This document shows, in pieces, positions 1,907 to 57,469 of a stretch of DNA of 64,000 bases. The translations under genes and the position numbers were made by a program. Below the pieces are notes generated by a model. The model searched no databases, was not told the origin of the DNA, and saw nothing but the letters and a program-made list of their open reading frames with translations. The first letter of the stretch is position 1; the number at the start of each line of letters is the position of its first letter. Origin of the DNA: Cavenderia fasciculata (Eukaryota; Evosea; Eumycetozoa; Acytosteliales; Cavenderiaceae); the NCBI RefSeq assembly GCF_000203815.1, contig NW_004457729.1, positions 806,674 through 870,673 of the forward strand, in the 5' to 3' direction.

Positions 1907-3608
1907 ATGTCACATGGAAGAGTAAAGGGTAAGCAATAATATTTATATTATTAATAAAATGACATAATGTATTAACATGGATTTATAACTATCGACCTAC
2001 TATCACAATCAATCACATGATATATGTATATTTAGAATTAGGAGATGGTGAATTATTCTCAGAGTTGTCTGCTGCAGGTTCAAAGTTGGTTGTAGTTGAC
2101 TTTACGGCCGCTTGGTGCCCTCCGTGTAAGGCCATTTCTCCTCGTTTCGTTGACCTTTCAAATGAATATCCAAATGTTGTATTTTTAAAGGTTGATGTTG
2201 ATAAATGTAGAGTATGTACAAGATAAGAAAATAACAAAAGTGAAAAGTGAAAAGAGAAAGAAGAAGAAGAAGGGTTGGTGATATTAGTAGTAAAGATGAT
2301 AATATATAACTTTTAAATATAATATATGATAACTAACTCTTTTCTTTTATTTTCTTTTTTTTTTCTTTTTTAATCTATATATAGAGTACAGCACAAAGTT
2401 GTGGAGTATCAGCAATGCCAACATTCCATTTCTATATTAATAGTAAAAAGATTGCAGAGTTTAGTGGAGCAGACCCAAACAAGCTCAAGAGTTACATTGA
2501 GCAACACCAAACCAAACCATCTTTTGCATCGAGTGGCCAAGCACTTGGTCACGGTCCAGCTCCCACCCAACAACCAAAACTTGTACTTTCATCCAACGAA
2601 GCCAATCCAGCTTTGGTACGTGAGTTGATTGAAATGGGGTTCCCAGAAAACAGAGCTAAAAAGGCTCTCATCATTGTAAAGAATTCATCTTCTCAAGCTG
2701 CTATGGATTGGATCTTTGAAAATATGGAAAAACCTGATATTGATGATCCAATTACAAATAATAATAATAACAATAATAATAACAACAATAATAATAATTC
2801 TTCTACTACATCTTCGACATCAACAGCACCAGTTGTTCATGATGCACTTTGTGATATTTGTCATAAACAAATCATTGGCATTAGATATAAATGCAAGGTT
2901 TGTCCAAACTATGACTTGTGTCAAGACTGCAAGGAAGGTGGCAAGCATCCAGCCGACCACGAGTGTGTCGCTCATGACAAAAACATTGAAAACTATGTGA
3001 TGACACCAGAAGAGAGAGCATTGCAAAAGAAAAAGTTGGATGAAAAGGTGATGGAATTACGTCGTATCAAGGCTGAAGACGAAGCCAAACGCGAGATTGA
3101 ACGTGAAATTAGCAGAAGATCAAGTGGCAAGGAACAACAACAATCACTCCAAAAGTGGCAAGACGACCAAATGAAAAAGGAACAAGAAAAGATCAAAAAG
3201 GAAAAAGAGGATGAGTTGAGAGCCAAGAAACGTATCAAAGAAAAGATTGAACAAGATAGATTGGAAAGATTGGCTAAAAAGAATGCTAGTTCTGGAACTA
3301 CACCAGCTGTTGTAGCTGCTGCTCCAGTTGCTGTTACACCAGTTGTTGCTACCACTACACCAGCCAATTACTCAGAGGTAACTATTCAAATTCGTCTTCC
3401 AACTGGGTCTGCCATCAGAGGAGTATTCAAACCATCGGATACACTCCAAGTAGTCTACCAATACATTGTTGAAAAGGGTGACCAGGGAAGCCACTTTAAA
3501 CTCTCTACTTCCTATCCTCGCAAGATTTACACTTCCGACGAATTAAAGACTACCACTTTAGAAGCTGCTGGTCTTGTTCCAAATGGAACTTTAATTTTAA
3601 CAAAATAA
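1907..3608 (+). CDS. Thioredoxin-UBA-ZZ-UBX multidomain protein
   Basis: Three exons (1907-1928, 2036-2211, 2385-3608) give 473 residues. Residues 1-105 are a thioredoxin fold with the redox motif WCPPC in [17 protein letters not shown] and the following [17 protein letters not shown] strand containing the cis-proline. Residues 139-180 are a UBA domain ([19 protein letters not shown]), which normally binds ubiquitin. Residues 217-265 are a ZZ zinc finger with paired Cys (CDIC, CKVC, CQDC) and His ligands. A Lys/Glu-rich coiled coil follows at 275-370, then a C-terminal UBX domain, the usual p97/Cdc48 adaptor. UBA plus coiled coil plus UBX is the plan of UBXN1/SAKS1; here thioredoxin and ZZ are added. 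The likely role is a cytosolic ubiquitin-p97 cofactor with a redox or thiol-binding head. The reading frame is continuous across both introns, so the fusion is in the DNA. An Asn run of about 14 separates UBA and ZZ. Confidence 0.9.
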
Positions 3609-11867: not shown

Positions 11868-14800
11868 ATGATAGCACCTTCGTCGTCATCAATATCAACA
11901 ACATCATCAAATGATTACCAACCAATACTTAGTTATCAAATGACACAAGGACAAAAGTATAGAATATCGTCTTTGGCAACCGATGCAACTGGACAAAAGA
12001 TTGCACTTGGAAGTGAGAGAAACCTATATATCCTTTTATTGACACAAGATGGTGGTGACACTGAAGAACAAATAACTCTTAGAAAGACATTGTATCCAAC
12101 CAAGGATAGTAGTAGTACCGGCAATGTAGTCCTAAGTTGGTGTCATGATAAATTAAAATCAAATCTAATTTCTACTTCTGTATGTATATAAATATATAAA
12201 TATAAATATATAAATATACATCATTAATGAATCTGACTTATTAATAATATTATGATTATTTTGTTATTTATTCTTTTCTAGAATGGAACCAATTTATTTG
12301 TATATGATACAAATGAAGAGAAATATGTATATTCATTTAACAAGGCACATTCAAGACACATTTCTTCATTGTCTTGGAATATGGCAGATTCAAATATATT
12401 GGCTAGTGCATCGGGTGATTCATTCATCAAGATTTGGGATTTAAGAGATCAAAAGAATGCATCTACATTGATCAATGCTCAATCAAGTCTTAATCAAATC
12501 GAATGGAATCCACATTCTTCAACTATGATTGCTTCTTCTCATTGTGGTGAAATTAAAATTTGGGATATTAGAGTATGCTAAAAATGGGGAACCATATATA
12601 TATTATATTTATTAACATCATTATTTTATTTCTCTCTTATTTTCTAGAAATTTGGATCACCATTAACATCATTTACAGCACATATTGGTGGAATTCCATC
12701 TATTGAATGGCATCATAAAGATAAAAGTACCATATTGACATGTGGAACTGATCGATCCATCAAAATTTGGGATGCATCACCACCTTCAAAATTATTAAGA
12801 TCTTATAAAATTGGTTCACCATGTAGTCTTTCAAAATTTGTTGTATGTCAAAAACGAAACAAAACATTAAATCTTTATTTGTATCATCATTTATTAATAA
12901 CTTTTGTATTTGTATTTATATTTTTAGCCATTTACAAGTCAAAAAGTAGTAGCAACGATTCAACAAAAAGGAGATAATGAAATATCATTTTGGTCAGGTT
13001 CAAATGATTCATCAGTGATGAATTTAGTTGGTCATCAAAGTCCAGTTTTATCATTTGATTGGAGAATAGTTGATGGTGCAACTCCAAGTGATCCTACCGA
13101 TAGAAAATATTATCTAGTTTCACTTGGAAAGGATAATTTTATTAAAATGTGGAAATTTACAGATGAAATGATTGGTGTAAGTACAATAGTAGTAGATACA
13201 CACAATTAAATGAAAGATTGAAATATTAATATTTTCAACAATTTCTTTTAGAATATTGTAAATGTTGATAGTTTATTATCACCAGAATCAAAATCAATAG
13301 GGATAGGAGGAAAAAGAAATTACCCATTAGATTTAAGCCAAGAATTATTAAGAATTGTCCAAGAGAAATTTAGCAATCTAACCATCGAGAAAACAAACAT
13401 GACAGAAAGAATATGTGTCGTCAATATTGACAATCGTAAAATCATCCTCATTATTTCATTTCCTTCATTGTATCCCTCTGCAGCTCCATCTTTTGAAATA
13501 TTAATTAAATCTTCACCAACTACAAATAATATAAAGGTTCAATTAAAAAAGGTAAGAAACAAACAAAATTAAATATATTAAGTAAATTAGTTTATATTCA
13601 CTTCTATTTTTTTGTATTTCTTTAGGAACTTGATAGATTATCATTAGAATTTATTGAAACAAAGAAACCATTTTTATATCAACTATTGAAAAAGTTTTCA
13701 GAGTTTTATTCACAAGAGATTGAAAAGGAACCTACATGCTACCAAAACATTACAGATTTTGTTGATTCGCCACAGATTAGCAAGAGAACTAGTTTGACAA
13801 TGCAACCATTTAGATTGTCTGATTATCAAAGACAATACCCTTCACCAACAGATTCCAATAATAATAATAATACAACTCAACCAAATACATTGACATCGAC
13901 AACATCAACTACAACAACAACAATAATACCTCCAACTTCACCTGTTGTTTTGACTTCGATTGGTGAATATACTAATGGTAATAATAGTTTTGATCATGAA
14001 AGAGATTTAGATGGAGAACAACTCCGTAGTCGAAGTAATAGTGCAACACCAATATTACAATCACAGCAAGATACATCATCATCTGGGTATAGACATCGAG
14101 CTGGATCGATTGGATCATCTTTTGCACCATTACCTCCAAATGCACCATACTATAATAGTAATCAATCTGTTTTATTTGAAATGTATGAAGTTAAACCAAC
14201 CGATACTCTTACTGGAATCGCATTACAATTTAATATGCCAAGAAATGTAATCATTCAAACAAATCGTTTATTATCTGATATGGTTATTCCTGGTCAAGTA
14301 TGTTAAACAATATTAAATATTAAGAATGATTATTGAGATAGAATACTAATATTTTATTTCTATTTAGATATTATGGGTATTTAAAAAAAAGGATAGATTT
14401 CAACAACAACAACAACAACAGGGACAAGATTTGGAAAAGATACCATTAGATCTGAATAATTTATCAATCAACGGCGATTTAAATACAAGTGTATCATCTG
14501 AAGATTCAATTTCATTGACTCCACTCGCATCCCCATTGATTGTTCCAACTATTGCTATATTATCACCACAACAACAATCACAACAACAATCACCATTCAC
14601 TGGAAATAGACCAAGAAGTAGAAGTAGCAATTCATCCAATATAAACATAAATGACCTTTTCAAACCAGTCAAAGAGGAAGTGCAAATGGCATTTCAAACT
14701 TTGGATCCAAATTTTATAGCATCAAGTGGAAATGGTAAAATGGATGGTACTATACCAACCATTCATGTTGAACAAGCTCTGACATCTCGTGGATCAGCTC

Positions 14801-16225
14801 TAATCACAAAATCAACTAGTCAAAATTCATTTGATACGGCAAGTGATAAATATAGTTGGGGTAGTCATAGAACTAGATTTACTCAAATCCCCAAAGAAAG
14901 CATTCACAAGGAACAATTAATTTGCTTTACAAAAAACAAAAGAATCTATGGTACTCTAACATTGACACCTTATCAATTTATTTTTCAATCACATTACAAT
15001 ACCGATCAAATATTTGCCGATTACATTCAAATCATTTCTTGTAAATATTTCCCAAACAAAACTGAATGGATTGCTCATTTATCAAGGTAATATTAAAAAA
15101 AAAAACAAATAATTGTTAAATTATATTATATTGATACTAATATATACTTTTATATTTTATTTTTAATTTTTAGGGATTGGAATAAAGAACAAAGTTTAAT
15201 TAAAAAAAAGAATCAAGATAATCATGAATATGATGTATTTATCCAAAGTGAAATTTCAAAATTAAATGAATTGGAAGAGGAAAATACCATATCAATCAAT
15301 GGAAAGGATAAAAAAGTATTGGTTTTCCCTTGTATCTACCTATTGATTTACAAGGATAAATATATTCAAACTTTATTCTTGAGAGGTATTGATGAAAATA
15401 GGTAAGAAAACAAACCAACCACAAACAAAATGAATATATATATAGACTTTTATACTTACATATCTTTTTTTTTTTAGTGTACAAAAGAGTTTCTCATTTT
15501 TAAAAAAATTGATTGTTGATCGTAAAGAATCTTCACCAATGGCAGTTTCACCTGTTCTTGGATCAACACCAATCAACAATACAGCAACAACAATACCATT
15601 GGTTAAATTACCACCACCCATTCCAATTGCATTACCACCAACTCTTGCATCACTTGGTGGAGGGTCATTTGAAGAACACAGTTATTCACCAAAACTCATT
15701 CAAACATTTACAAAGTATGAAAAACCATTGGAAGATGCTCTGCTAACCTCTGAAATATTCAAGAGACTTCGTCATTATCTCCCCATTCGACTCCAAGGCA
15801 ATGACGTAGAGTTGAAATATAATTCTACCAATGATGGTGTCTCTTTTCAAACTTTTTTCAGAAAAATGAAAGGTATCAAGTTTTCAATCCTCTTGGTTAA
15901 AGATAATGGTGGTCATGTATTTGGAGCATTTTTATCAGATGAAATTAGAACAAAGGATGCCAAATTTTATGGAGATGGTGAAACCTTTTTATTTAAAATA
16001 TATCCAGAATTTAATGTTTGGAAGTGGTCCAAAGAAAATGACTTTTTCATTTATTCTACGTTTGAATATTTTGTGGTTGGTGGAGGTTCATCATTTGGTC
16101 TTTGGATGGATACTGATTTCCTTCATGGGTCAAGTGGAGTTTGCGAAACATTTAAAAATCAATGTCTCTCTTATGCAAGTGATTTCAATCCAATCGTAGT
16201 TGAATGTTGGAGTGTTGGTGCTTGA
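11868..16225 (+). CDS. WDR59-like propeller + RWD fused to OXR1/NCOA7-like LysM-GRAM-TLDc
   Basis: Nine exons in one frame: 11868-12179, 12282-12572, 12648-12842, 12928-13176, 13252-13551, 13626-14297, 14368-15086, 15174-15401 and 15478-16225; 1237 residues. Residues 1-349 are WD40 repeats with IKIWD blades; AHIGGIPSIEWH and GHQSPVLSFDWR align with the equivalent blades of WDR59. About 365-475 is an RWD domain (ISFPSLYPSAAPSFEI), also as in WDR59. After a Ser/Thr/Asn-rich linker comes a LysM (YEVKPTDTLTGIALQF, about 634-680), a GRAM-like region (about 845-910) and a C-terminal TLDc domain ending VVECWSVGA. LysM-GRAM-TLDc is the OXR1/NCOA7 plan; TLDc proteins bind the V-ATPase, and WDR59 belongs to GATOR2 on lysosomes. 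Exon 6 carries both the end of the RWD and the LysM without a stop, so the fusion is direct. The C-terminal half and RING of WDR59 are absent. I infer a lysosome/V-ATPase role. Confidence 0.88.
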
Positions 16226-16508
16226 AAAGAGAAATCAATTCAATTCAAATCAAAATATATATTTATTAAACAAAAGTTTAGGGAATTAAATAAACGACCT
16301 AAATATTATTCACATTAAAATATATTGTACAAACAAAGTATTATTATTGATTTTTAAAACTATTTTATTATTAATCATTTTTTTGGAATTGGATGAGGTA
16401 TAATATTAATATTATTTAAATATGTGAAAAAAATATTCAATTGATTGAATATTAGGTAGATGGGGAGGGGGGGGTAGTCCATAGACCATGGTCGGAGTCG
16501 ATTCGATT

Positions 16509-20012: not shown

Positions 20013-23000
20013 ATGTTCATCTCCAACCCTCGCTTTTCACAAACTCATTTGGTATTTTCGAAAACCATTGTATTATTGATTTTATGTCTATGTATAGATT
20101 ACGATCAGTTTGTAGGTGCAATTATTCAAGGTGCAACTACACAAGTTAGTATAAAGAGTCCGATTACAGGTAGATGGTATCAAAAGTTTTGGTTGCCAGC
20201 TGGACCAGTCACAGCGATCAATGCTACGTGGGATTGCTCTAATCGTACCTATCAAGGTTACAAAGGATACATTGTACAATGGTCAAGTGACGAAGAGTGG
20301 GCATGGGCACTCTCATCGAACCTAGTCAACAATACCGCATCTTGGATCGGTGGAAGAGATGACCCTGCACCTTCAAAGGTCGGTCTATGGTACTACAACG
20401 AAGGTCCACTCAAAGGTCAACCAATGTATAATCTATTCTTTGATAAATGTTATCGTTGTTGTCATTTTGGTATTTTAGAACCTAATGTAAGTACTTTACA
20501 GTATATATATATTATAACATACATTAACATTATCTTAATTATATATATATAGTTAAGAAGAGGAGAGAATTTTCTTCATACATCATCAAGTTATAATATA
20601 TCATATTGGAATAATAATGCAAATACTGCAAGTATTACCACATGGATTTGTGAGTATGGTGGGTTGAGTCAACCGGCAATGCAACAGGCTGAAACGTCGG
20701 GAGGACCAATAGTCATCACTAATCTGGTTGGTTATCAACTTTCAACGCTTCAAATCAACTTTACAAAGAAATCAACCCCTTCTACCAAATTTCAGTGTCC
20801 TGTAACATCGATTATCAACTCTACATCGGTCATTTGCACATTACCTCCACAAACAGGATCGTATTCTGTCTTTTTCTACGACTCCTCTACCACTAGTGGT
20901 GGAAAGAATGACACTGTTCTCTATCAATACCAAAGTCCATTCATTTCAACCATCTATCCTGCATACAATGCAGGTGATACTATCACAGTGACTGGAAATA
21001 ACCTTGGAAATGATCCCTCCAAGATATCAGTCTCGGTCAGTAATGGAACCATCAAGTGTAATACTGTCACCTTTATCGTACCTAGTCAGGCCATTAAATG
21101 TGTACTAGCTAGTGCTCTAGGTCAAAACAAAATATTACCTCTTACAATCACTGTTGACTCTATTTCATTTCAATCTTTTAAAGCTTCTTTATGTATGTAA
21201 ATTATAATATTAAAATAATTATAAATAATAATATATTAATCTTTTTTTTTTGTTTATTATTTTAGACTTTGCAAAGAATAAATTATTTTATTCTGGATTT
21301 ATTAGTGATACTACATGGGATGATAATGAAATATATGCAACAAAGTTGAGGGTTGATGGTCAGGTTGGACATCGTGGAGTAGTCAATAATGTGGATTTAC
21401 ATGTATTTTTAAATAGGACTTTGCCACTTCCAATACCGGGACATTCATGGGATACTTGGCAAGGTGCATACTATCAACCAACCAATCAAAAATACTATTA
21501 TTTGGATGCTCCTCGAGTGGGTCAAGAAGTTGTCGGAGGGTTGTATGCTCCGATTGCACCAAATAAAACTGGGTGGACTACAACCACTCATATCACATGG
21601 TCGATGTATTCAACCAAGATAGTTGGCACTTCAGTCCTCACGACAATTGGTTCGACCCTGACAGAGTATGGTGGGAGTCAACCAAAGTTTATCAGCAATA
21701 TTACCAACTTGGTAGACTCGAGTGGTGGAGCTGTCGCGTTGCTGATGGACAATTATGGCACCCAGTTTAGTGCGACGGTGGTTACCTACCGAGGATCGAC
21801 TCTTACCTATACGCGTGACTTTATTGCTAGTTCTCTGAGTGCCAATGTTCCAATCGGCATTGATGGACCATACGCGATATCAGTCAGCATCGATGGAGTG
21901 TCTACCACTGCCAACACCCAATTCATCCAATACAATGCGCCAAAGATTGATTCGATTCCAGGAGGATTAACTGCAGGTTCCACTATCAATATCTATGGTA
22001 GCAGTCTTTGGAATCAGTTGGCAAACGTGTCTCTGTCGGTTGGCGGTGGATTGACTTGCAGCCAGTTGGTTATAGTTGTTGGACATCGCCAGTTTGCGTG
22101 TGTTGTTCCACCAGGCTCGGGTGGTCCGTTTGCAATGCAGCTGACTGTTGGCAAGCAGCTATCCAACGTGTACAACTACTACTATGCAGCTCCACTCGTA
22201 ACTGCAGTCACCCAAGAACTGTCTCCCTTTGGTGGAGAGATTGAAATCAATGGTACCAATTTCTACACTGATGCATCTTTGATTCAGGTTTCGGTCGGGT
22301 CAATCCCATGCACCTCTGTACGTGTATTGGTGAATCACTCGAGTATAGCGTGTACAGTATCTGCTGGAAGTGGAAGACAGCCTGTTGTGGTGACTGTATC
22401 AGGTCAACCATCCAACTCGAATGTATCCCTGACCTTCAAGACACCGTACATGCAGAGAGTAAACCAAGTACAAGACTATATCGAGATTTATGGAAATAAT
22501 TTTGGTGTAGTCTCCAACTTGATCATATCAGCTGGTAATGCATCGAATATAGCTTGTCAAGGAAACGATACGTTCATTGTATGCAATCCACTACCTCTCC
22601 AAGCGTCCAGTGGAAACATATCAATCAAAGCACAAAACTATCCAGCCGATTCAATTGAATTTGCATTCACTCCATACATCACCTCGATCACACCCAACCA
22701 AAACATTACAACTTGGGGTCAATACATTACCATTTCAGGTAGATTTTTCGAAACTTGGGATCCAGTCAACCAGACCTCCTTACCAGCACCACAAATTTAC
22801 AATAGTCATACCAACGATTATTATTTAAACAAACCGGTTATCGTCAATAATACTCAAACTATTACCTATTTTACAGAGATTGGTGGTACTGGTATGAATC
22901 AATTGTCAGTTCAAATTGGTGAGAGACCAATGTCAAATGGATTACTGTATACTTGTGCTAGTCCAATTATTACTGCCATTTCAATTGACCCAAATGCAAC

Positions 23001-24738
23001 CATTAGTAATTACAATATTATTACTATTTTGGGTAATGAATTTGGTCAGAAACCAGACAATATCTATTTGGATTATCAAAATGCCACTATCCAACCATCG
23101 TGGTTAGAGAATATTCCTCAGTTACTTGTCATAAAGATACAAGACAATTCTAAAAACAGTCAAATCAAATTGGTAATTGATGGATTACAATCAAATGACT
23201 TGGATTTAAATATACGTCCATTTATAAAGTCTGTTCAACCAATACCATACACAACCAATGGTAAAATGACTATCACTGGTCTCTACCTAGTCAACTCTGA
23301 TTCATCTGGTCAATCCATACCATTTGATATTATGTACTATAGTAATAATAATAATAATCAAACCAACATTTCAATGGAATATAGATACATAGATTTAAAC
23401 AAGACTATAATAGAATGTAATGTTCCCAATGGTTATGACTATTTTGACTTTGAAATTAAATCAACCAATCAAACAACTGGTATTATCAACTATCAATATG
23501 CTGAACCTGTCATTCTAGATGCTTCACCTGTATTTAAAAGAGTTGGTGGCAATGTGACCATTAGAGGTGTGTCATTTGGAGATGGACATAATTTGACAGT
23601 TTCCATTGCTTCTGTGGAATGTGGTTCTCCTTACTTGTTGGATACAACTCATTTGGTGTGTCATTATGATGGTAGTGTTGATAGTCCACTAAATGAAACA
23701 CTCCTCGTTACAGTGACTGCTCATAACCTAACAGGTAGTAATTATGCATTCCTCTATGCACAACCTCTAGCATGTCCAAACAATTGTTCAGGTCATGGTA
23801 CATGCTCCAATACAACTGGAAAGTGTACTTGTGAAGTTGGATACCAATCATCACAAGATTGCTCTGTCAGTGGTGGTGGCAGTGGTACCCCACCCTCAAC
23901 CGACGGTAATGGAAACACTACATTACCATCTAAAGTCAATTTTACAGTGGCGGTTAGTCACCTCAGAGAGCTAGATATCGACGGACAGACCACTGTTAAA
24001 ATCCTCAAAACAAGTACTACCAAATGGAATGTAACCAACAACTATGGTGGTGATTCAAATGTCAAACTGTATCAAGGAATGTTCCCAAATGACACTGCAG
24101 TTTTGCAAGTCACGGTCACTTATTACAATCAATCACAAGATATTGTATTTGCGGGCCAGACAATCTCAATGCCAAGCGATTCTGTCAAATATGAACTAGC
24201 TATTTCAAATTGGACTTGGACATCCAATACCAACACTATACAAGCCATATTCAATACCAAATCACCTAAATACTCTACTTATAATTGTCAAGAGAGTGAG
24301 GCTACCCTTACTACCACCACCACATCGGGTGAATCAATCTACTTTTTCCAATTAAAGAATGGTGGATCAGTGATGAATGCCAATTTTGCCGACCGTCTAT
24401 TATCAGATCAACGTGTCATTAGAACTAGTATTACACTCCTCGATTCAAATGACCCACTCTACCTCGATGTAGCCACATCAAATGACGAATACAATTTATT
24501 GGCAGCTGTCAATTGTCCTCATTTTGAAAATAGTGTCATCATTGATCCATCATTTTCAGCACTCGTACAACCAGACACTAAAGATGATTGTGAATCTTTA
24601 GCAGCATGGAAGATAGCAATTATTGTAGTATTCTCAATTATCGGTGCTTCTGCCGTTGCCATTGCAAGTTTTGTAACAATAAGGAAAAAATTAAAAAGAC
24701 AAAGAGAAATTTCAAATTTAGATATTAAATTAAAATAA
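20013..24738 (+). CDS. ComC-like receptor with C-type-lectin, IPT/TIG repeats and EGF module
   Basis: Three exons (20013-20486, 20553-21192, 21266-24738) give 1528 residues from the ATG at 20013, which opens a signal peptide (VFSKTIVLLILCLCI). The N-terminal part is a C-type-lectin-like domain (WIGGRDDPAPSKVGLWYYNEG, split by intron 1), with a second, degenerate copy in exon 3. Repeated IPT/TIG-like modules follow (patterns such as GDTITVTGNNLG and GGNVTIRGVSFGDG), then one EGF module (CPNNCSGHGTCSN) and a Gly/Thr linker. The shared membrane-proximal module follows (SNWTWTSNTNTI, DPSFSALV), then a transmembrane helix (IAIIVVFSIIGASAVAIASFV) and a tail ending SNLDIKLK. Numerous N-x-S/T sequons fit an extracellular location. 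The likely role is adhesion or carbohydrate recognition. The earlier in-frame GTG at 20004 is not used because an ATG follows it. Confidence 0.88.
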
Positions 24739-31208: not shown

Positions 31209-31417
31209 CCATTCAACATACCTACCTTAAATGGACGTATGGGAAAAACAAAGAAAGATGATTATTCGAGTTTATATTATAAATTAAACTCTTTTTGATT
31301 TCTAATTATATTTTTAAAAAACATCTTGTTTGTTTCTGATTCCAAAATTATTACAGCTGTATATATATGTTTTAAACATTAACCATGTTTTTAGATTTAT
31401 ATTTATATATGTAGATA
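31091..31417. other. Intergenic, A/T-rich with (AAT)n
   Basis: 3' end of the preceding gene and promoter of the F-box/FNIP gene. An (ATA)n run lies at about 31169-31205. No ORF is supported. Confidence 0.5.
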
Positions 31418-33514
31418 ATGAATATAGATAATAATGATAATGATAATGATGATCAACAACAACAACAACAAGAAATTGATTATATAACAACAAAGATACC
31501 AACCATTATATTATTAGATATAATCAATAGGATTGAAGACAATGTAGATCTAATTAGTTGTTTGTTGACTTGTAAAAAGTTATATGAAAAGATTAGACTG
31601 CAATACAGCCATTCTATTCGATTCAAAGGGTTACAGTACATTGGTAAAAGAAAAGACTATACATCATCAGACGATGATCATAGTTTAGATTATTTCACAC
31701 CACTCGTCTACAAGATGGGGAGGTGTATGCCATCGTTTCGAGGTATCCTTCAAAACACTCTATCCAATCAATTGGTCATTGCAAAGAAGAGTCCTGAACT
31801 CCTCAACGCAGTATCTGATATATCTAAAAGGTTAAACAACTTTTATGTTATAGATGGTGTGCTGCACGACGACGAGTCGACCAATGGTCAATCGAGTCAA
31901 CAATCAATGTCATTCAATTTTGACAATCAACAACAATATAATAATCAAGTCTCAAAGGTATTGTTAGTGTCTAGATACGACCCTTTGGACTACATCACAT
32001 TACCATCATCAACAAGACAACTGATCATTGAACAAAGTAATGGAGACCTATCAACCTTTAAAAATTTGGAGTCATTTATTCCATCGACAGTGGAACACTT
32101 GGAAATTGATTGTGAATGCCTCGATCTTTCAAGTACAAGTAACCAAGTAATACCAAACACGATCAAATCATTGGTTATTCATCTAGATGACTCTATCGAT
32201 CAAATCGGTGACTATGAAAATGAAATCTGTTTGCCAAGTGGACTTGAATCTCTTACACTCAGGTTTGGCAGGACTATACCATTCAACCAACTACCATTCA
32301 ACCATCTATTGTCACTCACAACTCTAGAATTCACATCCAAAACAGTGACGACAGGCGTACTACCAACTAGTTTAACAAGTCTTAAAATCAATCTAGAGAA
32401 CCCACCTCCAACAGACTTTTTCAAACCATTGCCCAATCTAGTAACACTTCATGTCCAAATATTCTTCATTCGTCGTGACTCGTTTATAATGGACCTTGAA
32501 TCACTCCAGTATCTTGAGAGTTTAAAGTTTAGTACAAGCCAAAAAGTTGATATCAACCTGCCTGTTTCAGAGTCACTTATATGTCTATCTCTACCATTCA
32601 ACTCGACCAAAATCAGTCATCTACCAAAATCTCTAGAGATCTGTGATATATCTTATGAAAGGTTAATGGCTCTCGTTCAGACGACACCCCTTCCAACATC
32701 GCTACACAAATTGCAAATCCAAAATTGTCCTCATGGTGTACCAGTTGGCGTTATACCCAATAGTGTCAAAGTACTTTCCTTTGCATCTATATCGACAGCT
32801 TTGATAGTCGAAGGGTCTATACCATCATCTGTCGAAAAGTTGGGTCTTGGTCGGTACAATGGTCCTACCTCTCCATCTTTTCTACCCGACTCTATCAAAC
32901 ACCTAACATGGCGTAGAGGCATAGCACGCACCGAGTCGTTGCCAAAGAACTTGGAAACATTGACTTGGAAACCACTCATGATATTATCCTTCGGCGCCCC
33001 CGATAAGTTTATAATGTCAACAGATAACATGCCACCTTCTCTCGTTTCATTGTCAATACAAGTACCCGAATTTCAAACTATCAATCAAACTCGAGTATAC
33101 TCTATGACAGACAATATCAAAAATAATCAAAATAATAATAATATTGACCAACCAATCCTACTACTACTACCAAACCATATCAAACGATTGAGTTGTAGGA
33201 TAGAACCAGGTCACACAACAAAATTATTTTGTTTTAGATTGGATGATATTATTAATCATACCAAAGTTCAAGAACTAAACTTGACCCTTTCATCATCATC
33301 ACAAGTTTGGGTACAATTAGCTATTCAAAGATTGGATAATGACAATTCAAATGTTATGATGGTTGATAACCAATCTATATTTGGTGGATTCTTTAAACAA
33401 AAAAGAATGGAGGATGGTAAATATGGTCCATTATATCTTGTTTATCACAAAGATGGTAAAGAATCTACTTATTTTAGTTATGAAATACCTACTACTAAAA
33501 TAAATAAAGAATAA
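31418..33514 (+). CDS. F-box/FNIP-repeat protein (copy 1)
   Basis: Single exon, 698 residues. After an Asn/Asp/Gln-rich start comes an F-box-like segment (TKIPTIILLDIINRI through SCLLTCKKLYEKIR). It is followed by many FNIP/leucine-rich-like repeats of about 22 residues with the hallmark 'xLPxSLxSLxI' (for example GVLPTSLTSLKINL, GVIPNSVKVLSF and GSIPSSVEKLGLG). These proteins are expanded in dictyostelids; by analogy with other F-box LRR proteins they should recruit substrates to an SCF ubiquitin ligase, but individual targets are unknown. The C-terminal end (RLDNDNSNVMMVDNQSIFGG) is shared with the gene at 36142, so the two are tandem paralogues now separated by a transposon. Confidence 0.9.
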   Translation: MNIDNNDNDNDDQQQQQQEIDYITTKIPTIILLDIINRIEDNVDLISCLLTCKKLYEKIRLQYSHSIRFKGLQYIGKRKDYTSSDDDHSLDYFTPLVYKMGRCMPSFRGILQNTLSNQLVIAKKSPELLNAVSDISKRLNNFYVIDGVLHDDESTNGQSSQQSMSFNFDNQQQYNNQVSKVLLVSRYDPLDYITLPSSTRQLIIEQSNGDLSTFKNLESFIPSTVEHLEIDCECLDLSSTSNQVIPNTIKSLVIHLDDSIDQIGDYENEICLPSGLESLTLRFGRTIPFNQLPFNHLLSLTTLEFTSKTVTTGVLPTSLTSLKINLENPPPTDFFKPLPNLVTLHVQIFFIRRDSFIMDLESLQYLESLKFSTSQKVDINLPVSESLICLSLPFNSTKISHLPKSLEICDISYERLMALVQTTPLPTSLHKLQIQNCPHGVPVGVIPNSVKVLSFASISTALIVEGSIPSSVEKLGLGRYNGPTSPSFLPDSIKHLTWRRGIARTESLPKNLETLTWKPLMILSFGAPDKFIMSTDNMPPSLVSLSIQVPEFQTINQTRVYSMTDNIKNNQNNNNIDQPILLLLPNHIKRLSCRIEPGHTTKLFCFRLDDIINHTKVQELNLTLSSSSQVWVQLAIQRLDNDNSNVMMVDNQSIFGGFFKQKRMEDGKYGPLYLVYHKDGKESTYFSYEIPTTKINKE

Positions 33515-33729: not shown

Positions 33730-33850
33730 CGAAAACATCTAAACATTTTTAACATTTTTAACATTTTAAACATTACAAGTACTACCTTAATTTAAACGTA
33801 TAACTTTAGTATATATCAATCAGCAGTGCTAGTTACAGGAGTTCAATATA

Positions 33851-35972
33851 ATGGATGATGTTTTAACTGTTATTTGTAAGATTTGTGCGAAAATTATCCC
33901 TCTTTGTGATGTCAAAGCACATTTACTTGACACATGCATCCCTTCTCTTCTCTTTCGTTATGGATGCGGTGGTACTCTCCCAACATCACAAGAGTTCGAG
34001 AAGCTAACACAATCAGATAAAGAACATCAAATATTAAAAGTTAAACATGCAACCTTGCAAGAAAAATATAAGCAACGCAAAGCAACAACAATTGTTACAA
34101 CATCTCAACCACCTCCTCCAGTATTTAGATATGATTCACCAACAAATTCTATCTTCTCCTCTCCACCACCAACACCAAGTAATTCCTCAATTGCAATGGA
34201 TAATAGTTTTATGGAAGAGACTTTTCATGTCAAGAAAGAGTTTTTAAAGCAAGCAGATATTCATACATATAACAACAGTAGCAACTTAATTAATCTAGAT
34301 ATTCCTGATGGAGACCAAGGAGTGTGCACACTTGGTAACCAATTTAAGGTGCAGCAGAAAGATGTGATATTTTGTACCAACTCAGTGAGAGGCAGCAACA
34401 GAATAGAAATCACTTGTTTCGACAAACAAATTACATTGTGTAAACCTGCACACATTACGGATGAATATTGTCAAACTCATCTCGTTAGACCTCTTCTGGC
34501 AAGACCTATATCATTAGATGATGTAAAAGAATCAATATCAAACCGCCCAAAAGAAGAGTTGGTTAAATGTGCATCATGTCCAAACAAATGCACGATGAGC
34601 ATAAGATGCAAAGCGTCCTCACTCACTCCAATCAAGGATAATTATCTGTACTTTTGCACATATTCTTGTTTCCAAAAATACTTTGGTTCATCATCAGGTA
34701 AAACCTGGTCTGCTTATATCGAATCTAGTATGTATTATAATTTTTATTACTACTTATAAAGTACATACAACTGATACCTTATTCTAGAACAACCTAAAAA
34801 AGACAAAAAGGAAAAGAAGGAAACGAATAAGGAAAAAGGAAAAGATGATGATTCAGACGAGGAATCCAGCCATGAAGAAGATGAAGAGGGATATGTAGTA
34901 GAAGATGAAGAACAACATACAGATAAGAAAAGAAAAGCATCTACACCACCAAAGCCGACAACTAAAAAGGCTCCAGCTAAAAAGGCTGCAGCCAAAGACA
35001 AAGATAAAAGTAAAAGTTCTGGCAAGAAATAAACTAACAACTATTAATTATTGACACATATCTTCTTCTCTAGAAATTAACAAGATTATAGAGTACTTGG
35101 AAGATGAAATAGTATCGTTCATTGGACTTAAATTTGAAGATTTCCAAGATTTATATCAAAACACTATACGATTGCAAAAGACAAAAACAGAAACCAGAGG
35201 CACTAAATCAAAGTATTCAATCAGGGGCCAGTTGTTTATTACACTTTGTTGGCTCCGTCACTACCCAAAGAGAATTGTTCTATCTGCATTTTTTAAAATA
35301 TCGCAAACTACTGTAGAAGAATACACGTCTAACACTTTGGATTTGTTATATCCTCTCTGCCAAGAGAATTTCGATTACTATTTTTCAAAAAGAATGGACA
35401 AAGAGCACTATTCAATTTATGTTAAAGACACCAATGAATCTTGCATGGTTACATCAGTGGCAGATGGATCAGAACAAAGAATTTCAGTTCCCATGGATTC
35501 CGAAATTGCAATGAATTTTTATAGTGGAAAGAAAGGATATTTCTCAATAACCAAACTTGTCTTTTGTACTCCCACTGGAAAGATTATTTTCATGTCTAAA
35601 TCAAGACCTGGATCAAGAAATGATATTAACCTCGCCAATGAATCAAGAGCTTTCTATTCTAAACTAGACGAAGTTCTCGAGTTTATTTTGGGAGACAAAG
35701 GATTCATAGGTTGTCATGGCATGTATAAACACTTTTTGGTTAACGATAGAAATCCTAAAGCTAGTTTTAATAGAGGTGAGGCTGACAAAAGATTTAAAGC
35801 CATTAGAATTATCATAGAAAATGTGTTTGCCCATATGAAAAAGTGGGAAGCATGCAAAGCGACTTTGAGGATCAAATTTTCCGATCCTTCAAAAATTCTT
35901 CAACAACATGATCAAATATGGTCAGTTGTAGGATATCTCACAAATAAATACAAAAACATTAGAGGATTATAG
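33851..35972 (+). CDS. DDE-superfamily transposase (three exons)
   Basis: Exons 33851-34727, 34788-35009 and 35074-35972 are phase-consistent and give 665 residues. The N-terminus has a CxxC...HxxxxC zinc-finger-like motif (CKICAKIIPL to HLLDTC). A second Cys cluster follows at about residues 235-285 (CASCPNKC, CTYSC), then a Lys/Glu/Asp-rich linker that probably acts in nuclear import. The third exon starts with a helix-turn-helix (GQLFITLCWLRHYP, ISQTTVEEY) and the catalytic core: first Asp in VADGSEQ, second in ILGDKGFIG, and Glu in IIENVFAHMKKW, in the order of DDE_Tnp_4 enzymes. All three catalytic residues are present and no frame is broken. The donor of intron 2 (GTAAAAG at 35010) is weaker than usual but needed to join the zinc-finger part to the DDE part. 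Without it the two halves would be separate ORFs. Confidence 0.85.
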
Positions 35973-36065: not shown

Positions 36066-36141
36066 AATTTTAAAGAAGATGAACATGTTCATCACCATCA
36101 TAGGTCACTCGCTTAACATGTAGTACATTACATCTCAAATA

Positions 36142-38175
36142 ATGGCAACCACAACAGAGATAGATATAGAGGACTATATAACAACAAAGATACCAACAAC
36201 TATTGTATTAGAGATACTCAACCACTTGGATAATGTAGATCTTATATGCATGTTGTTAACTTGTAAAAAGTTGTACTTTAATATTAGACAACAATGCAAT
36301 AATACCATTCGATTCAAAGATATAAGGTTGGTTGATGAAAAAGCATACAACTATATTTGGGATAGGTTTGTTGATAAAATGGGTAGTTGTATGCCATCGT
36401 TTTACAATATCCTTCAAAACACCTTATCCAATCAACTAGTCATAGCAGACCAACAAAATGAATATGCTTCAATATCAAAACGATTCAACAATTATCATAT
36501 ACTTGATAATAATGATGTAATGTCGGCCAATTCAACATATTACAACACCAAAGTAGAGACTGCTTTATTGTCAAATGTGAATGTGAACACCATTGGAGAC
36601 TGGTCAAAACTAAAGTTACCAACATCCACAACAACTATACTCATCCATCATGGTCAAACACCCATCGAGTTTCCAACCGACTACTTTCATCATTTACCAT
36701 TAATCAAAAGAATGGTTGTAGAATGTTCACAGATTAGTCTTGGAGGAGAAGGAGGAGGAAGCTTTCCACAAACCATTAAATCATTGGACTTAAAGGTATC
36801 GTCTGGACCGACCAAAGAACTATTATCTGGTCTACCACATGGATTGGAATCACTTGTATTTCGGTTTGGAAGAAACACTGCTCCCATTCCATTTCAAGAT
36901 ATCCCGTTTAACAAAATGTCGTCGTCGTTGACTACTTTGGAACTGTATACAACTGACTTGCCACCAGGTATCTTGCCAACAAGTTTGACACGTCTCACTC
37001 TGTCATTTAATACTTCCATTCCACAAGACTTGTTCAAATCATTGACACGACTCGAATCACTTTCTATTATTGCTAAAAGGTTGGGCAAACAAGACCAACC
37101 TGTCGACCTACAACCACTCGTCTCTCTCAAAAGTTTTAAAACACAGTTTGGACCAGCCATGCAGTTTATGTTGCCTCAGGAATCACTCCAACACTTGACC
37201 ATTGACTCTTTTACCAAAATTGACAGTATACCCGAATCACTAACCAGCTTGAACATTAGTTTGGAAACAATGGTCCATATGTTGGAATCTGAAATGCACA
37301 AACTACCAACATCGTTAACCAAACTTAAACTCAATACATATATTCCACGATTAATACCTCCTGGTCTTATACCAAACACTATCAAGTATCTTCAAATTGA
37401 AGCATGTACATTGGTAGAAGGATCTATTCCAGCGTCGGTAGAAACTTTAAAGGTTGGTGAGAGTATGACAGAAAATGTAACACTTCCCGATACCATCAAA
37501 CACCTATCATGGAAAAGTGAAGTTTCAGTACCTCTACCCAAACAATTAGAGACTTTAGAATGGACTTGCAATCTATTACGTTGGGCAGATAAAGCATACG
37601 ATTATTCACATAATTTTGCACCTATCATTAGTCAACTACCAACAACACTCACATCGTTGGCCATACAATTACCAAATTTCGAATCATTAAACAATGACCA
37701 AATTCGTGTCTATTCACTATTGGATAATATTAAATCAAAAACTAATGATGGTGATGATGATGATGATAATAATGATGATTGTAATCAATTAATATTACCA
37801 CCACATGTTACACAATTGACATGTAATATTCCACTTTGGTTTGAATATTTGTTATGTTTTAGATTGGATGAAATCATCAATCGTACCAATGTTCAAGAGT
37901 TAACACTATCCTTTCCAGTAAGTCATTGGGTACAGTTGGTCATTAAAAGATTGGATAATGATAACTCTAATGTCATGATTGTTGAAAATAATTCAATCTT
38001 GGGTGGTTTCATTCAACAACAACCTGGAAATCTACCAAACCAAAAGTATAGACCTCTCTATATTCAATACCACTATGATCAACGTGGTATGTATACATTT
38101 TTGGGTTACGAATTGCCTACCAATGGAAATAATAATGATAATAATAATTCCAATGAAATGGAAATTCCAAGTTAA
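36142..38175 (+). CDS. F-box/FNIP-repeat protein (copy 2)
   Basis: Single exon, 677 residues. It has the same plan as the gene at 31418: an F-box-like start (DYITTKIPTTIVLEILNHL, LTCKKLYFNIR), then a long array of FNIP-type repeats (GILPTSLTRLTLSF, GLIPNTIKYLQIEA, GSIPASVETLKVG). It ends with the shared RLDNDNSNVMIVENNSILGGF block and an Asn-rich tail. An Asp/Asn run (DGDDDDDNNDD) sits before the C-terminal block. The likely role is an SCF substrate receptor, inferred from the family only. The pair arose by tandem duplication; sequence divergence between them is considerable, so the duplication is much older than the transposon insertion between them. Confidence 0.9.
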   Translation: MATTTEIDIEDYITTKIPTTIVLEILNHLDNVDLICMLLTCKKLYFNIRQQCNNTIRFKDIRLVDEKAYNYIWDRFVDKMGSCMPSFYNILQNTLSNQLVIADQQNEYASISKRFNNYHILDNNDVMSANSTYYNTKVETALLSNVNVNTIGDWSKLKLPTSTTTILIHHGQTPIEFPTDYFHHLPLIKRMVVECSQISLGGEGGGSFPQTIKSLDLKVSSGPTKELLSGLPHGLESLVFRFGRNTAPIPFQDIPFNKMSSSLTTLELYTTDLPPGILPTSLTRLTLSFNTSIPQDLFKSLTRLESLSIIAKRLGKQDQPVDLQPLVSLKSFKTQFGPAMQFMLPQESLQHLTIDSFTKIDSIPESLTSLNISLETMVHMLESEMHKLPTSLTKLKLNTYIPRLIPPGLIPNTIKYLQIEACTLVEGSIPASVETLKVGESMTENVTLPDTIKHLSWKSEVSVPLPKQLETLEWTCNLLRWADKAYDYSHNFAPIISQLPTTLTSLAIQLPNFESLNNDQIRVYSLLDNIKSKTNDGDDDDDNNDDCNQLILPPHVTQLTCNIPLWFEYLLCFRLDEIINRTNVQELTLSFPVSHWVQLVIKRLDNDNSNVMIVENNSILGGFIQQQPGNLPNQKYRPLYIQYHYDQRGMYTFLGYELPTNGNNNDNNNSNEMEIPS

Positions 38176-53361: not shown

Positions 53362-56300
53362 ATGTACTTTGTAAAATTATTTGTATTATTATTATTATTT
53401 ATAGTTAGTTGTAGAGGTCAATGGATTTATGAAGTAGAGTATGCAAATGCAGGATGTACAGGAGCAATTAATAGAGTAAATGCATTTTATGCAGGACAGT
53501 GTTATGCCGGTGGTTCAGACTATTGGTGGTACACTGTGTCTGGTGGTACTGCTTCGTTTGCAATCAGTCAAGGAGGTTGTTTTGCAGCACCAGACTACGC
53601 TTATAATTACCCTGCCGACTCTGGATGTACTGGATCTATGCAGGTCATCACACGTACAGTACCTCCACTACCAGCCACCGGATTCCTTGGATTCGAACGT
53701 ATTAGGTCGCCAAACCCATCAAGTGATTGTTTAAACTACGAAAATGAAAGAAGTATTGATAGAATCAATGCATGTGTCATGTTACCATCAAACAGAGGTG
53801 CTGGTATCTATATCAGGGCCTATCAAACCACTCAAATCGGGTTTGGATATTATTATGCCGGATGTGGTACTGTAATGGGTACCAATGTATTTACATCTCC
53901 ATCTACATGTTCAAGTGTCGATGGTGGGTATACATGGGGACAAGTGTTCCCAGCACTAGGTATATCATCGGTCGGTGCAACCAACACCCTAAACGATGTA
54001 TCGCTCACTACCTTTTCGTCGAATATCGGTGGTTCCATCTTTTACTACACTGCCACGCTCAGCTGTCCAGCTGGTCAATACCCAATGGCCACTTCGATTA
54101 ACCCAGCCACACCAACTGCCACCCTCGCCATTCCATCCGCAGCTAGAGGTCAGAGTTGCACAATCGTCGTGTCAGCCAACGGAGACACTATCGTATCTGG
54201 CGGTCCTATAACAGGTCAATCAGGTGCCTTTACCCTTCCACTTCGTATGTCCCCTCAACTTATAAAATATAATATATTTAATATTTCAACATGACACTAA
54301 CTATTTATTTTATTTTATTTAGTTGCAACAATGTCAACATTAACACCAGGAACTGTAACAACTAAAACCATAGCATTTACTTATTCTAGTAGTACTGGAG
54401 GTACTTATACAGTGACTGTTGGTGGAACACAATATCCAACTTGTTCGGGTGTGACTACATGTACTGCCACTGGATTAAATCCAAATACACAATACACTGT
54501 CAGTGTGACCGTCACCAATGCCGGTACGACCTCTGCACCATTGAGTTTCACCACTACCACTGCCAATATTATTGACACCCCATCCGTTTCAATCAACGCT
54601 CAAACCAGCACATCTCTTACCGTATCGTATGCAGTGACTGGTGGTTATGGAGCTACCATCTACCAACTCAGACTCAACAACGTCGTTCAAGCTTCATGCA
54701 TAACTTCATCATGTACAATTCCCGGTCTTGTCTATGGAACTGTTTATACTTTTTCAGCATCTGCAACCAATGATGGGTATACTGCAACTTCACCCAATTT
54801 TGTTAAAAACTTTTGGACTTGTATGAAACAAAACAAAAAAATAATAATCCAAATCTATCAATATTTATATTTATAATTACTTTTATTTCTATTTCTATTT
54901 TTTTTCTTTCTTTATAGTACCAACAATGGGACCAGTAAATATTGTAAATTATGGAACTACATGGTTAACATTTAGCTATTCATCAAATGATGGTAGAGTG
55001 ATTGGTGCCAATACATTTGCTATTCGAGTCAATGGAATATTGAGTACAAACTCTACTTGTTCAGGATCTACCAATTGTTATGTTGGTGGATTGACTGCAG
55101 GTTCAACACCAGCCATTAGCATCACATCTTCCAACAGTGGTGAAACATCTGCTACACAAGGTACAGCAAATCAAAAACTATATGATAGTGTCAGCACCCT
55201 TGTTGTTACACCATCCCTACAAACAAGTTCATCATTTAGAGTAACGTATTCAAGTTCGAATGGTATCCCTTTAAAAACAATCTACCAAGTTTTAGTTGAC
55301 AGTATTTCCGCCCCTAGCTGTCCAGCCACCGAAGGTGCATGTACTATTATATCCCTTCCACCAAAAACCTACAATGTTACAGTCACTGCAACCAACGACG
55401 GTTTATTAATTTCAAAATCAATCAATGTTCTTGTTACAAATTGTATGTATAAATATATTGAATTAATATATATTTTGGATTTTAATTATTTAATATTTAA
55501 TTTATTTTTTTAGTCCCAACAATGAATCCAATTGTAGTAGGAGATATTGGTACAACTTGGGTTGAATTTACTTATTCATCTATTGGTGGTACAGCAGGAG
55601 GTAATAGTTTTACAATTAATGTTGCTGGATCAGATATTGCAACTGCATCATGTAAACAAGGACCATTCTGTAGAGTTTCTGGTTTAACTTCTGGATCATC
55701 ACCAGTTATTTCAATCTTTGTAACCAATAATGGTGAAGTTTCCAATACTGTATCTTCAACTCCTTCATTGTATCAACCAACCTCGCCACCAATCATCTCG
55801 TTTTCAAGAGTATCACCAACCACTCTTAATATTTCATGGACCGAAAATGATGGTGTTCCAGGCCTATCTCTATTTGACGTGTTATTAAATGGAACCAATA
55901 TTTGTCCCAATATTGCTATTAACAATTGTTTATATAATTCAATTACCGATGGATTATATTACAACTTTACAATCATTGTTAAAAATGATAACTTTGTTTC
56001 ATCAAATTCAAAATCTTATTTCTCTTATCCTCGTATGTTAAAACATTTAAATTAAAATATAGACATATAAATATATATATAAATATTAACATAATTATTA
56101 TTATTATTTATTATTAGCAACAACACCAGTTTTAGTAACAGCAATTGGAAAGACAGGATCAATTTATGTAAATTGGACAGAGTCAAGTGGAGGTGTGCCA
56201 GATGAAACTAAATACCATGTATTCTTGTCTATTGATAATGATCATTGGGCTAGAGTTTGTTTGGGTGGCGCTGCTAGTAATAGTTTGAACCTTTCATGTT

Positions 56301-57469
56301 TGGTTGATGACTTGACAGACAATACATTCTATTATGTAATGGTGACTGTTGAAAACACAGATTTTGAAGTTTTAAGAACCATTAGTAATGCTACTACTCT
56401 ACCTTTTAACGGTACCAATAGTTGCAGACCAGCTGGATCAGAAGTGGACTGTTCAGGTAATGGTACATGTCCAAATCATGAATGTCTGTGTGCAGACGGT
56501 TGGGATGGTCAATATTGTGAGGTACCAACTGACGGTGGTGGAGATGGTGGAGATGGTGGAGGTGGTGTGATCATTACACCTAATCCATCAAACCCAGGCA
56601 TTGATATTGATAAAGGAGGTGTAAAATACTCATTCACAATTAACAAACTATTGGAACGTGATTTGGATATGAATGTTGCCAAAGTGTTAGAGTTGACATC
56701 GATTAAATGGCAACCCGTCCAACAAGTCAATGATACTCTGGTACACCCAACCAACAATGGATCGGTGATTAGACGTTCGTGGACATACACAGCTATCAAT
56801 GTAACCTCGTATGCCGCTGTCATCAATATCACCTTTATCCAACTGGAAGCAATCCCTAATGTGACAGTTGGAGACTCTTACCCAATGTCATTTGCAGGTG
56901 ATGAGTTCCTTCTCAAGATCGGGTCGTTCAAATATGCAATGGAAATATCTCAATGGAATTGGGATAGCCAGTTATCAACACTAGAGTTATGGACTAGTAT
57001 CAATGCTCAACCTGAAGAATGTGCCAGTGATGATTCCAATCCCATTGCAATGGTCAATGGTACAACATCCAACTTTATCAATATTGGTCAAGCCAACGGC
57101 AAACTACTGTACGGTAGACTTGTCAAACGCGTCGTTCTCGACTCTATCCCTCGTTCAGTCAATCACTACCTCGTACAAGAATCCGAAACCAACACAACTG
57201 TCGTCACAGCCATTCCATACTTTGAAAACCAAGTCGACATTGATCCCAACTTTTCCCTCTTGCTCGACACCTCCAAATCATCCAATGACGGTTGCTCCAA
57301 ACCCGACAATACCTGGCGTATCATTGTAGGTGTAGTAGTTGGAGTTGCTGCACTTGCAGCCATCACATTTGCAGGAACACTCTTTTACAAGAGAAAGCTA
57401 AGAAATCATCAACAACAAAAGACCCTAGCTAAAAAATTATCATCCATCAATAATAATAATCAGTCATAA
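53362..57469 (+). CDS. ComC-like receptor with fibronectin-III-like repeats and EGF module
   Basis: Five exons (53362-54244, 54323-54820, 54918-55442, 55514-56032, 56118-57469) give 1258 residues. A signal peptide (LFVLLLLFIVSCRGQ) is followed by a Cys-rich N-terminal domain of about 270 residues. Three central exons each hold two Ig/fibronectin-III-like sandwiches with patterns such as TTWLTFSYSS and NGTNICP. Every intron is phase 1, so the exons are symmetric and could be duplicated or lost without frame change. Exon 5 has another FN3-like unit, one EGF module (CSGNGTCPNHECLC), a Gly-rich linker and the shared membrane-proximal module (ISQWNWDSQLSTLEL, DPNFSLLL). A transmembrane helix (IIVGVVVGVAALAAITFAGTLF) and a short tail follow. 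The likely role is cell-cell adhesion; ligands are unknown. Confidence 0.88.

Follow-up and report, generated by a model that had tools for sequence, protein, structure and literature searches.

In the yeast SEA complex, the propeller and RWD domain of Sea3/WDR59 (the SIP) are described as lying in a wing with Sea1, Npr2 and Npr3, on the GATOR1 side, and the C-terminal half of the same protein (the SAP) in the GATOR2/SEACAT core, with a flexible connector joining the two; deletion of the SAP alone is reported to cause rapamycin hypersensitivity like that of other SEACAT (GATOR2-type) mutants (PMC9646525). Fission-yeast Sea3 is reported to work with GATOR1 (PMC7857730), and according to a preprint fly Wdr59 moves like GATOR1 under starvation (PMC13370336). 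In another family, the TLDc domain of Ncoa7 is described as binding the vacuolar-type ATPase (V-ATPase; PMC8608904), and the TLDc domains of Oxr1 and Ncoa7 as inhibiting the ATPase activity of bacterial A3B3 in vitro (PMC12146697). Here we report that a gene of Cavenderia fasciculata, at 11868-16225 on the + strand of a 64,000-nucleotide (nt) window of contig NW_004457729.1, very probably unites a WDR59-like and an OXR1-like module in one gene, at the level of the assembly. The window is the whole stretch of DNA analysed, and coordinates given without a contig are positions in it; all parts of the fusion gene lie on the + strand. Both families are known and their combination here is clearly bounded, with no earlier description in the literature searched: no open-access paper was found with both WDR59 and TLDc, and in the seven with TLDc and WD40 neither the title nor the opening of the abstract mentions a fusion of this kind. 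Automatic annotation of the gene may exist in protein databases.

The continuous frame over nine exons claimed by the original prediction was confirmed: the exons comprise 3714 nt and encode 1237 amino acids with no internal stop, and all eight introns are GT-AG, 70-102 nt long, with a G+C content of 8-21%. The protein carries, in this order, a WDR59-type propeller, an RWD domain, a low-complexity linker, a LysM, a weak GRAM-like stretch and a TLDc domain. Exon 1 (11868-12179) holds the start and the first propeller strands, exons 2 (12282-12572) and 3 (12648-12842) hold WD40 blades, and exon 4 (12928-13176) the last blades, the propeller occupying approximately residues 33-348. A loop and then the first part of the RWD (approximately residues 373-485) follow in exon 5 (13252-13551). 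The junction exon, exon 6 (13626-14297), contains the end of the RWD, about 150 residues of low-complexity linker and most of the LysM (residues 636-677; 14184-14379), which is split by the intron at 14298-14367. Exon 7 (14368-15086) contains the end of the LysM, a low-complexity linker and the start of the GRAM-like stretch (approximately residue 845, position 14881), which continues, as a weak assignment, through exon 8 (15174-15401) and ends in exon 9 (15478-16225), where a linker, the TLDc domain (residues 1075-1236; 15734-16219) and the stop are found.

The WDR59-like nature of the N-terminal half was borne out. Residues 1-494, compared with the sequences of solved structures, gave 528 matches, of which the best 60 were inspected; the best of the 528 was WDR59 (7uhy_D, 4.9e-41), in which the RWD was matched as a second stretch (i-Evalue 1.8e-4), and the runners-up were Tako8 (9.1e-38) and a WDR24 chain (9dx2_H, 2.8e-36). 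For the best single stretch, WDR59 reached 122 bits versus 43.5 for Tako8 and 57 for 9dx2_H. Yeast Mtc5, which we take to be a synonym of Sea3, also matches (3.9e-24). Pfam recognizes the RWD exactly at its curated cut-off (1.1e-4, 22.8 bits), directly behind the propeller, the order being that of WDR59. An exon-by-exon search of the genome (31.0 Mb in 21 contigs; one genome) with the N-terminal half returned 72 matches, the six best being the fusion gene itself; this search alone fails to single out WDR59, because the best WDR59 exon (C2, 3.3e-14) comes narrowly behind two other WD40 places, on C7 (6.1e-17) and C5 (2.4e-14).

Behind the RWD the protein continues with the linker, LysM and TLDc. 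The RING is missing, as had been predicted: none of the 14 zf-RING_16 matches found genome-wide lies at the fusion locus, and a genome search with 200 residues of the WDR59 C-terminus gave three places (WDR59, WDR24 and MIOS), none of them at this locus. Describing the retained part as a “GATOR2 half”, as had been done, was wrong, as the propeller and RWD of Sea3/WDR59 are the part reported to bind GATOR1/SEACIT, and the apparently lost C-terminal half is the part reported to build GATOR2/SEACAT (PMC9646525).

The proposed search for a separate, full WDR59 with RING and a separate OXR1, run in this genome, found such a WDR59 and a stand-alone OXR1-like gene. The canonical WDR59 (L037; C2:1333480-1339305) has propeller, RWD and RING in consecutive frames, each best matched by WDR59 among solved structures (the RWD weakly, at 18 bits); the model of this gene is incomplete at 1163 residues, the last intron lying between the frames at 6062 and 6367 of the locus. 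Because this RING-bearing WDR59 stands elsewhere in the genome, the fusion gene is not the GATOR2 subunit but an additional WDR59-like gene that has diverged, a possibility for which the original prediction had allowed. The genome also has WDR24 on C17 (L038; RING half 3e-42, propeller part 6.6e-72 to a WDR24 chain), MIOS at C3:1540-1543.5 kb (1.2e-72) and the GATOR1 genes Npr2 (C8), Npr3 (C4) and Iml1 (C3). A zf-RING_16 match above the cut-off was also found in a 439-residue frame on C3 that the search with the WDR59 C-terminus did not match. The stand-alone LysM-TLDc gene (L040) lies at C5:568.9-572.0 kb, on the same contig as the fusion and about 250 kb away, and has six exons encoding 917 amino acids; a TLDc gene without LysM (L041) lies on C14. 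By eye only, the L040 protein may hold two GRAM-like stretches (approximately residues 265-300 and 481-548). A scan of prokaryote genomes for relatives gave four pattern matches, none of which was confirmed, an expected outcome.

The predicted OXR1/NCOA7-like character of the C-terminal half stood for the LysM (Pfam, 4.9e-7) and the TLDc domain (1.2e-43). Two of the four LysM stretches in the genome are in TLDc genes, namely the fusion and L040, and the three top scores among the 21 TLD stretches listed belong to the fusion, L040 and L041. The predicted GRAM domain was not recognized by Pfam: searched up to E = 1, it matched neither the C-terminal half of the fusion nor either of the two other amoeba OXR1-like proteins tested, and the GRAM-like stretch is drawn from the weak resemblance of residues 845-902 to L040 (28%, 4e-4). 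The TLDc domain is identical to the NCOA7 chain 7uzg_T at 63/159 positions, to zebrafish OXR2 at 64/157 and to L040 at 60/159. A TLDc tree sets the three amoeba sequences apart from the two vertebrate ones (98.8/99) and does not separate L040 from L041 as the closer relative of the fusion (58/61). Mutation of G815, S817, G845, G896, L926 or E938 is reported to weaken or abolish binding of Ncoa7 to the V-ATPase (PMC8608904), and all six positions are kept in the fusion. The numbering was counted back from residue 943 of mouse Ncoa7 and agrees with the glycine bend described at 896-903 in the same source (PMC8608904). We consider that the TLDc domain of the fusion probably binds the V-ATPase.

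Both halves look like genomic copies, one of a WDR59 gene and the other of an OXR1-like gene, because propeller and LysM introns are shared. Each of the three introns in the propeller of canonical WDR59 has a counterpart in the fusion in the identical alignment column and phase (12180-12281, 12573-12647 and 12843-12927, all phase 0, corresponding to introns 1, 2 and 3 of the canonical gene); a simple count, setting the five fusion introns against about 1020 sites at which an intron could lie, gives this a chance of about 6e-8. The phase-0 intron at 14298-14367 within the LysM is common to the fusion and L040 in position and phase, within an ungapped match of 46 residues (632-677 versus 74-119). 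A phase-2 intron at the end of the GRAM-like stretch (15402-15477) appears by hand comparison to have a similar place in L040 and L041; MAFFT left it unaligned. Several introns weigh against this origin: two of the five in the N-terminal half, at residues 349 and 449, are absent from canonical WDR59, one of the three in the C-terminal half, at residue 912, has no counterpart in the parent-type genes, and L040 introns at residues 264, 368 and 765 have no match in the fusion. Protein divergence is large (propeller 32% identical to the canonical paralogue over 325 residues; TLDc 60/159 to L040), and the duplications behind both halves appear to be old.

Based on these observations, we tentatively propose, as the best explanation of the fusion, that it bridges GATOR1 and the V-ATPase with no part played by GATOR2, because it keeps the SIP, appears to lack the SAP, has an OXR1-type protein in that place and retains six of six TLDc positions. 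This biological reading is more specific than the earlier one, a physical or functional link between the two systems, because the cut falls where the two halves of WDR59 meet. The propeller and RWD would contact GATOR1 (Iml1/DEPDC5-Npr2-Npr3) in the manner of yeast Sea3; the segment through which WDR59 connects GATOR1 with the GATOR2 cage would be absent, and the TLDc domain in its place would bind the V1 sector of the V-ATPase. A GATOR2-free, and hence GTPase-activating protein (GAP)-competent, GATOR1 pool might thus be held at the proton pump, or GATOR1 might follow the state of the pump, so that the condition of acidic organelles would set how far TORC1 is dampened. The position of the break point between the two functional halves of Sea3 is consistent with this proposal, as is the presence of Npr2, Npr3 and Iml1 in the genome. 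Binding of the N-terminal half to GATOR1 is suggested by analogy and must be called tentative; that this binding and binding of the TLDc domain to the V-ATPase both occur is slightly less likely still.

A fuller version of the proposal, which we regard as doubtful, is that cutting WDR59 where its GATOR1-binding part gives way to its GATOR2-building part and adding a V-ATPase-binding tail would yield a Rag-GAP under pump control that by-passes GATOR2, that the fusion would be a Rosetta-stone pointer to contact between GATOR1/WDR59 and OXR1-type proteins where these are separate, and that linker sites might provide feedback. Three R-x-R-x-x-S sites occur in the two linkers of the fusion (residues 583-588, 605-610 and 754-759; 14025-14042, 14091-14108 and 14608-14625), a motif that we take to be AGC-kinase-like, and none in L040, L041 or the incomplete 1163-residue WDR59 model; three such sites were reached in 0.02% of 5000 shuffles, a figure that serves only as a lead, as the pattern was chosen after the sequence had been viewed. 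Open questions in the field are how the V-ATPase communicates with Rag/TORC1 and why WDR59 behaves in some organisms like a partner of GATOR1; a single amoeba protein with the GATOR1-facing half of WDR59 and a V-ATPase regulator would, if the proposal is true, make both testable.

Several observations weigh against the bridge, chief among them the divergence of the propeller from its canonical paralogue. Of 63 propeller columns that do not vary among the WDR59 proteins of human, yeast and this amoeba (the canonical one), the fusion keeps 39 and WDR24 27; of the 36 diagnostic columns among them, those in which WDR24 differs, the fusion keeps only 18. In a propeller tree of four sequences the fusion groups with amoeba WDR59 (88/82), but once WDR24 is added as outgroup it branches off before the three WDR59 sequences, on a long branch (91/86). 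The partner side of the GATOR1 interface is described as essentially unconserved between yeast and human (PMC9646525). The six TLDc positions are kept as well in L040, L041 and the two vertebrate chains used for comparison, and burial of G845 and G896 is reported for Ncoa7 (PMC8608904), so that retention of the six would indicate an intact fold rather than binding. The strongest competing explanation, a serious possibility although one we do not favor, is an OXR1-type V-ATPase regulator whose propeller and RWD have taken on a general scaffolding role in docking or targeting, unconnected with GATOR1, and which regulates the pump only. Loss of half of the diagnostic columns, together with an intact LysM and TLDc, fits such a protein, as does the report of an unrelated module, TBC, in the TLDc protein Tbc1d24 (PMC8608904); retention of propeller and RWD in the Sea3 order, with the scaffold half dropped at the flexible connector, argues for the bridge instead.

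A different question is whether the locus makes one protein or two. Besides or instead of the full protein, it might produce a short OXR1-like protein starting inside exon 6 (at the ATG of residue 635, just before the LysM), the WDR59-like part alone, or both. In-frame ATG codons at residues 508, 635, 653 and 668 would permit this, a short Ncoa7 isoform, Ncoa7-B, has been described (PMC8608904), and ATTAAA occurs in exon 5 (13504, 13542) and in both introns flanking exon 6 (13568, 14312), although it is widespread in other exons and introns of the gene. We consider two products unlikely. The junction exon, predicted to lack a stop, does so, with no in-frame stop, the two remaining forward frames having 8 and 32, and at its base composition 224 open codons would arise by chance with a probability of about 3e-8. 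Its linker (13710-14189) has a G+C fraction of 0.27-0.43 in 60-nt windows, the RWD end 0.20-0.22 and whole introns 0.08-0.21. Neither AATAAA nor ATTAAA is present in the exon, and an AATAAA (16289-16294) stands 64 nt past the stop that follows the TLDc domain. We likewise rejected the idea that exon 6 conceals an intron or a boundary between genes, since the exon has no stop and is free of AT-rich gaps, and the filter used (donor GTA[AGT][GT], acceptor YAG, 50-300 nt, G+C fraction at most 0.30) found no donor and acceptor enclosing a stretch composed like an intron.

That the assembly has joined two loci is very improbable. The linker does contain trinucleotide runs (16 and 25 nt), and an 81-nt low-complexity piece of exon 6 is 77% alike to C2:484209-484286; however, the runs are short, the junction exon as a whole matches only its own place in the genome, the frame is preserved across the join inside a single exon, and no orphan second WDR59 C-terminus was found by the search described above. 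We reject such a chimera while leaving it a very small residual probability, and the assembly error in 13700-14300 that had been named as refuting the fusion is not indicated. The last alternative, that the fusion is itself the GATOR2 subunit WDR59 of the organism, draws on WDR59 being the best match of its N-terminal half and is refuted, as regards the sole WDR59, by the absence of zf-RING_16 matches at its locus and by the RING-bearing WDR59 on C2, the propeller of which scores higher against human and yeast WDR59 (178 and 159 bits) than do the propeller and RWD of the fusion (144 and 88 bits).

Around the fusion gene, the neighboring long frames end at 10659 (+) and 16509 (-). Elsewhere in the window, a frame at 35055-35972 (+) encodes a DDE_Tnp_4 transposase with a helix-turn-helix (PF13359, 2.2e-23; PF13613, 3.1e-10), and a frame just upstream (33833-34759), with no Pfam match, may belong to the same element. 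Two similar-looking FNIP-repeat/F-box proteins flank these frames, one at 31415-33514, recognized by eye only, and one at 36124-38175 (Pfam FNIP 2.3e-12, F-box 2.8e-4). ComC supersandwich frames lie at 21232-24738, with TIG repeats, and at 56090-57469, with an EGF-like domain; presumably they encode dictyostelid surface proteins, and both FNIP repeats and ComC domains are linked to dictyostelids. A frame at 2385-3608 combines UBA, ZZ and UBX, with a thioredoxin end below the cut-off (21.2 versus 23.5 bits). A 1235-residue frame at 59312-63019, with no Pfam match at E 0.001, lies in a stretch of high G+C content (55.8% at 60001-62000 versus 35% for the window, whose A+T content is 64.8%).

Compared with known systems, the fusion resembles the SIP of WDR59/Sea3 in having a propeller followed by an RWD, in ending at the place of the flexible connector and in sharing three introns with the genome's own canonical WDR59. 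It differs from WDR59/Sea3 in that no RING was found and an OXR1-like protein is present instead, in that the approximately 150 low-complexity residues from RWD to LysM appear too few for an alpha-solenoid, and in being only 32% identical to its canonical paralogue. With OXR1/NCOA7 it has in common a LysM, a putative GRAM-like stretch and a TLDc domain in that order, but it carries a WDR59-like N-terminal extension of about 630 residues and its GRAM is unrecognized by Pfam. mEAK-7 (TLDC1) is likewise a TLDc protein, described as located at lysosomes, binding the V-ATPase and activating mTOR signaling; to our knowledge it has no WD40, RWD or LysM. Unlike the fusion, mEAK-7 is described as having a myristoylation site (PMC8608904). 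In Tbc1d24/Skywalker, as here, TLDc is fused to another trafficking module, which in that case is a TBC domain (PMC8608904).

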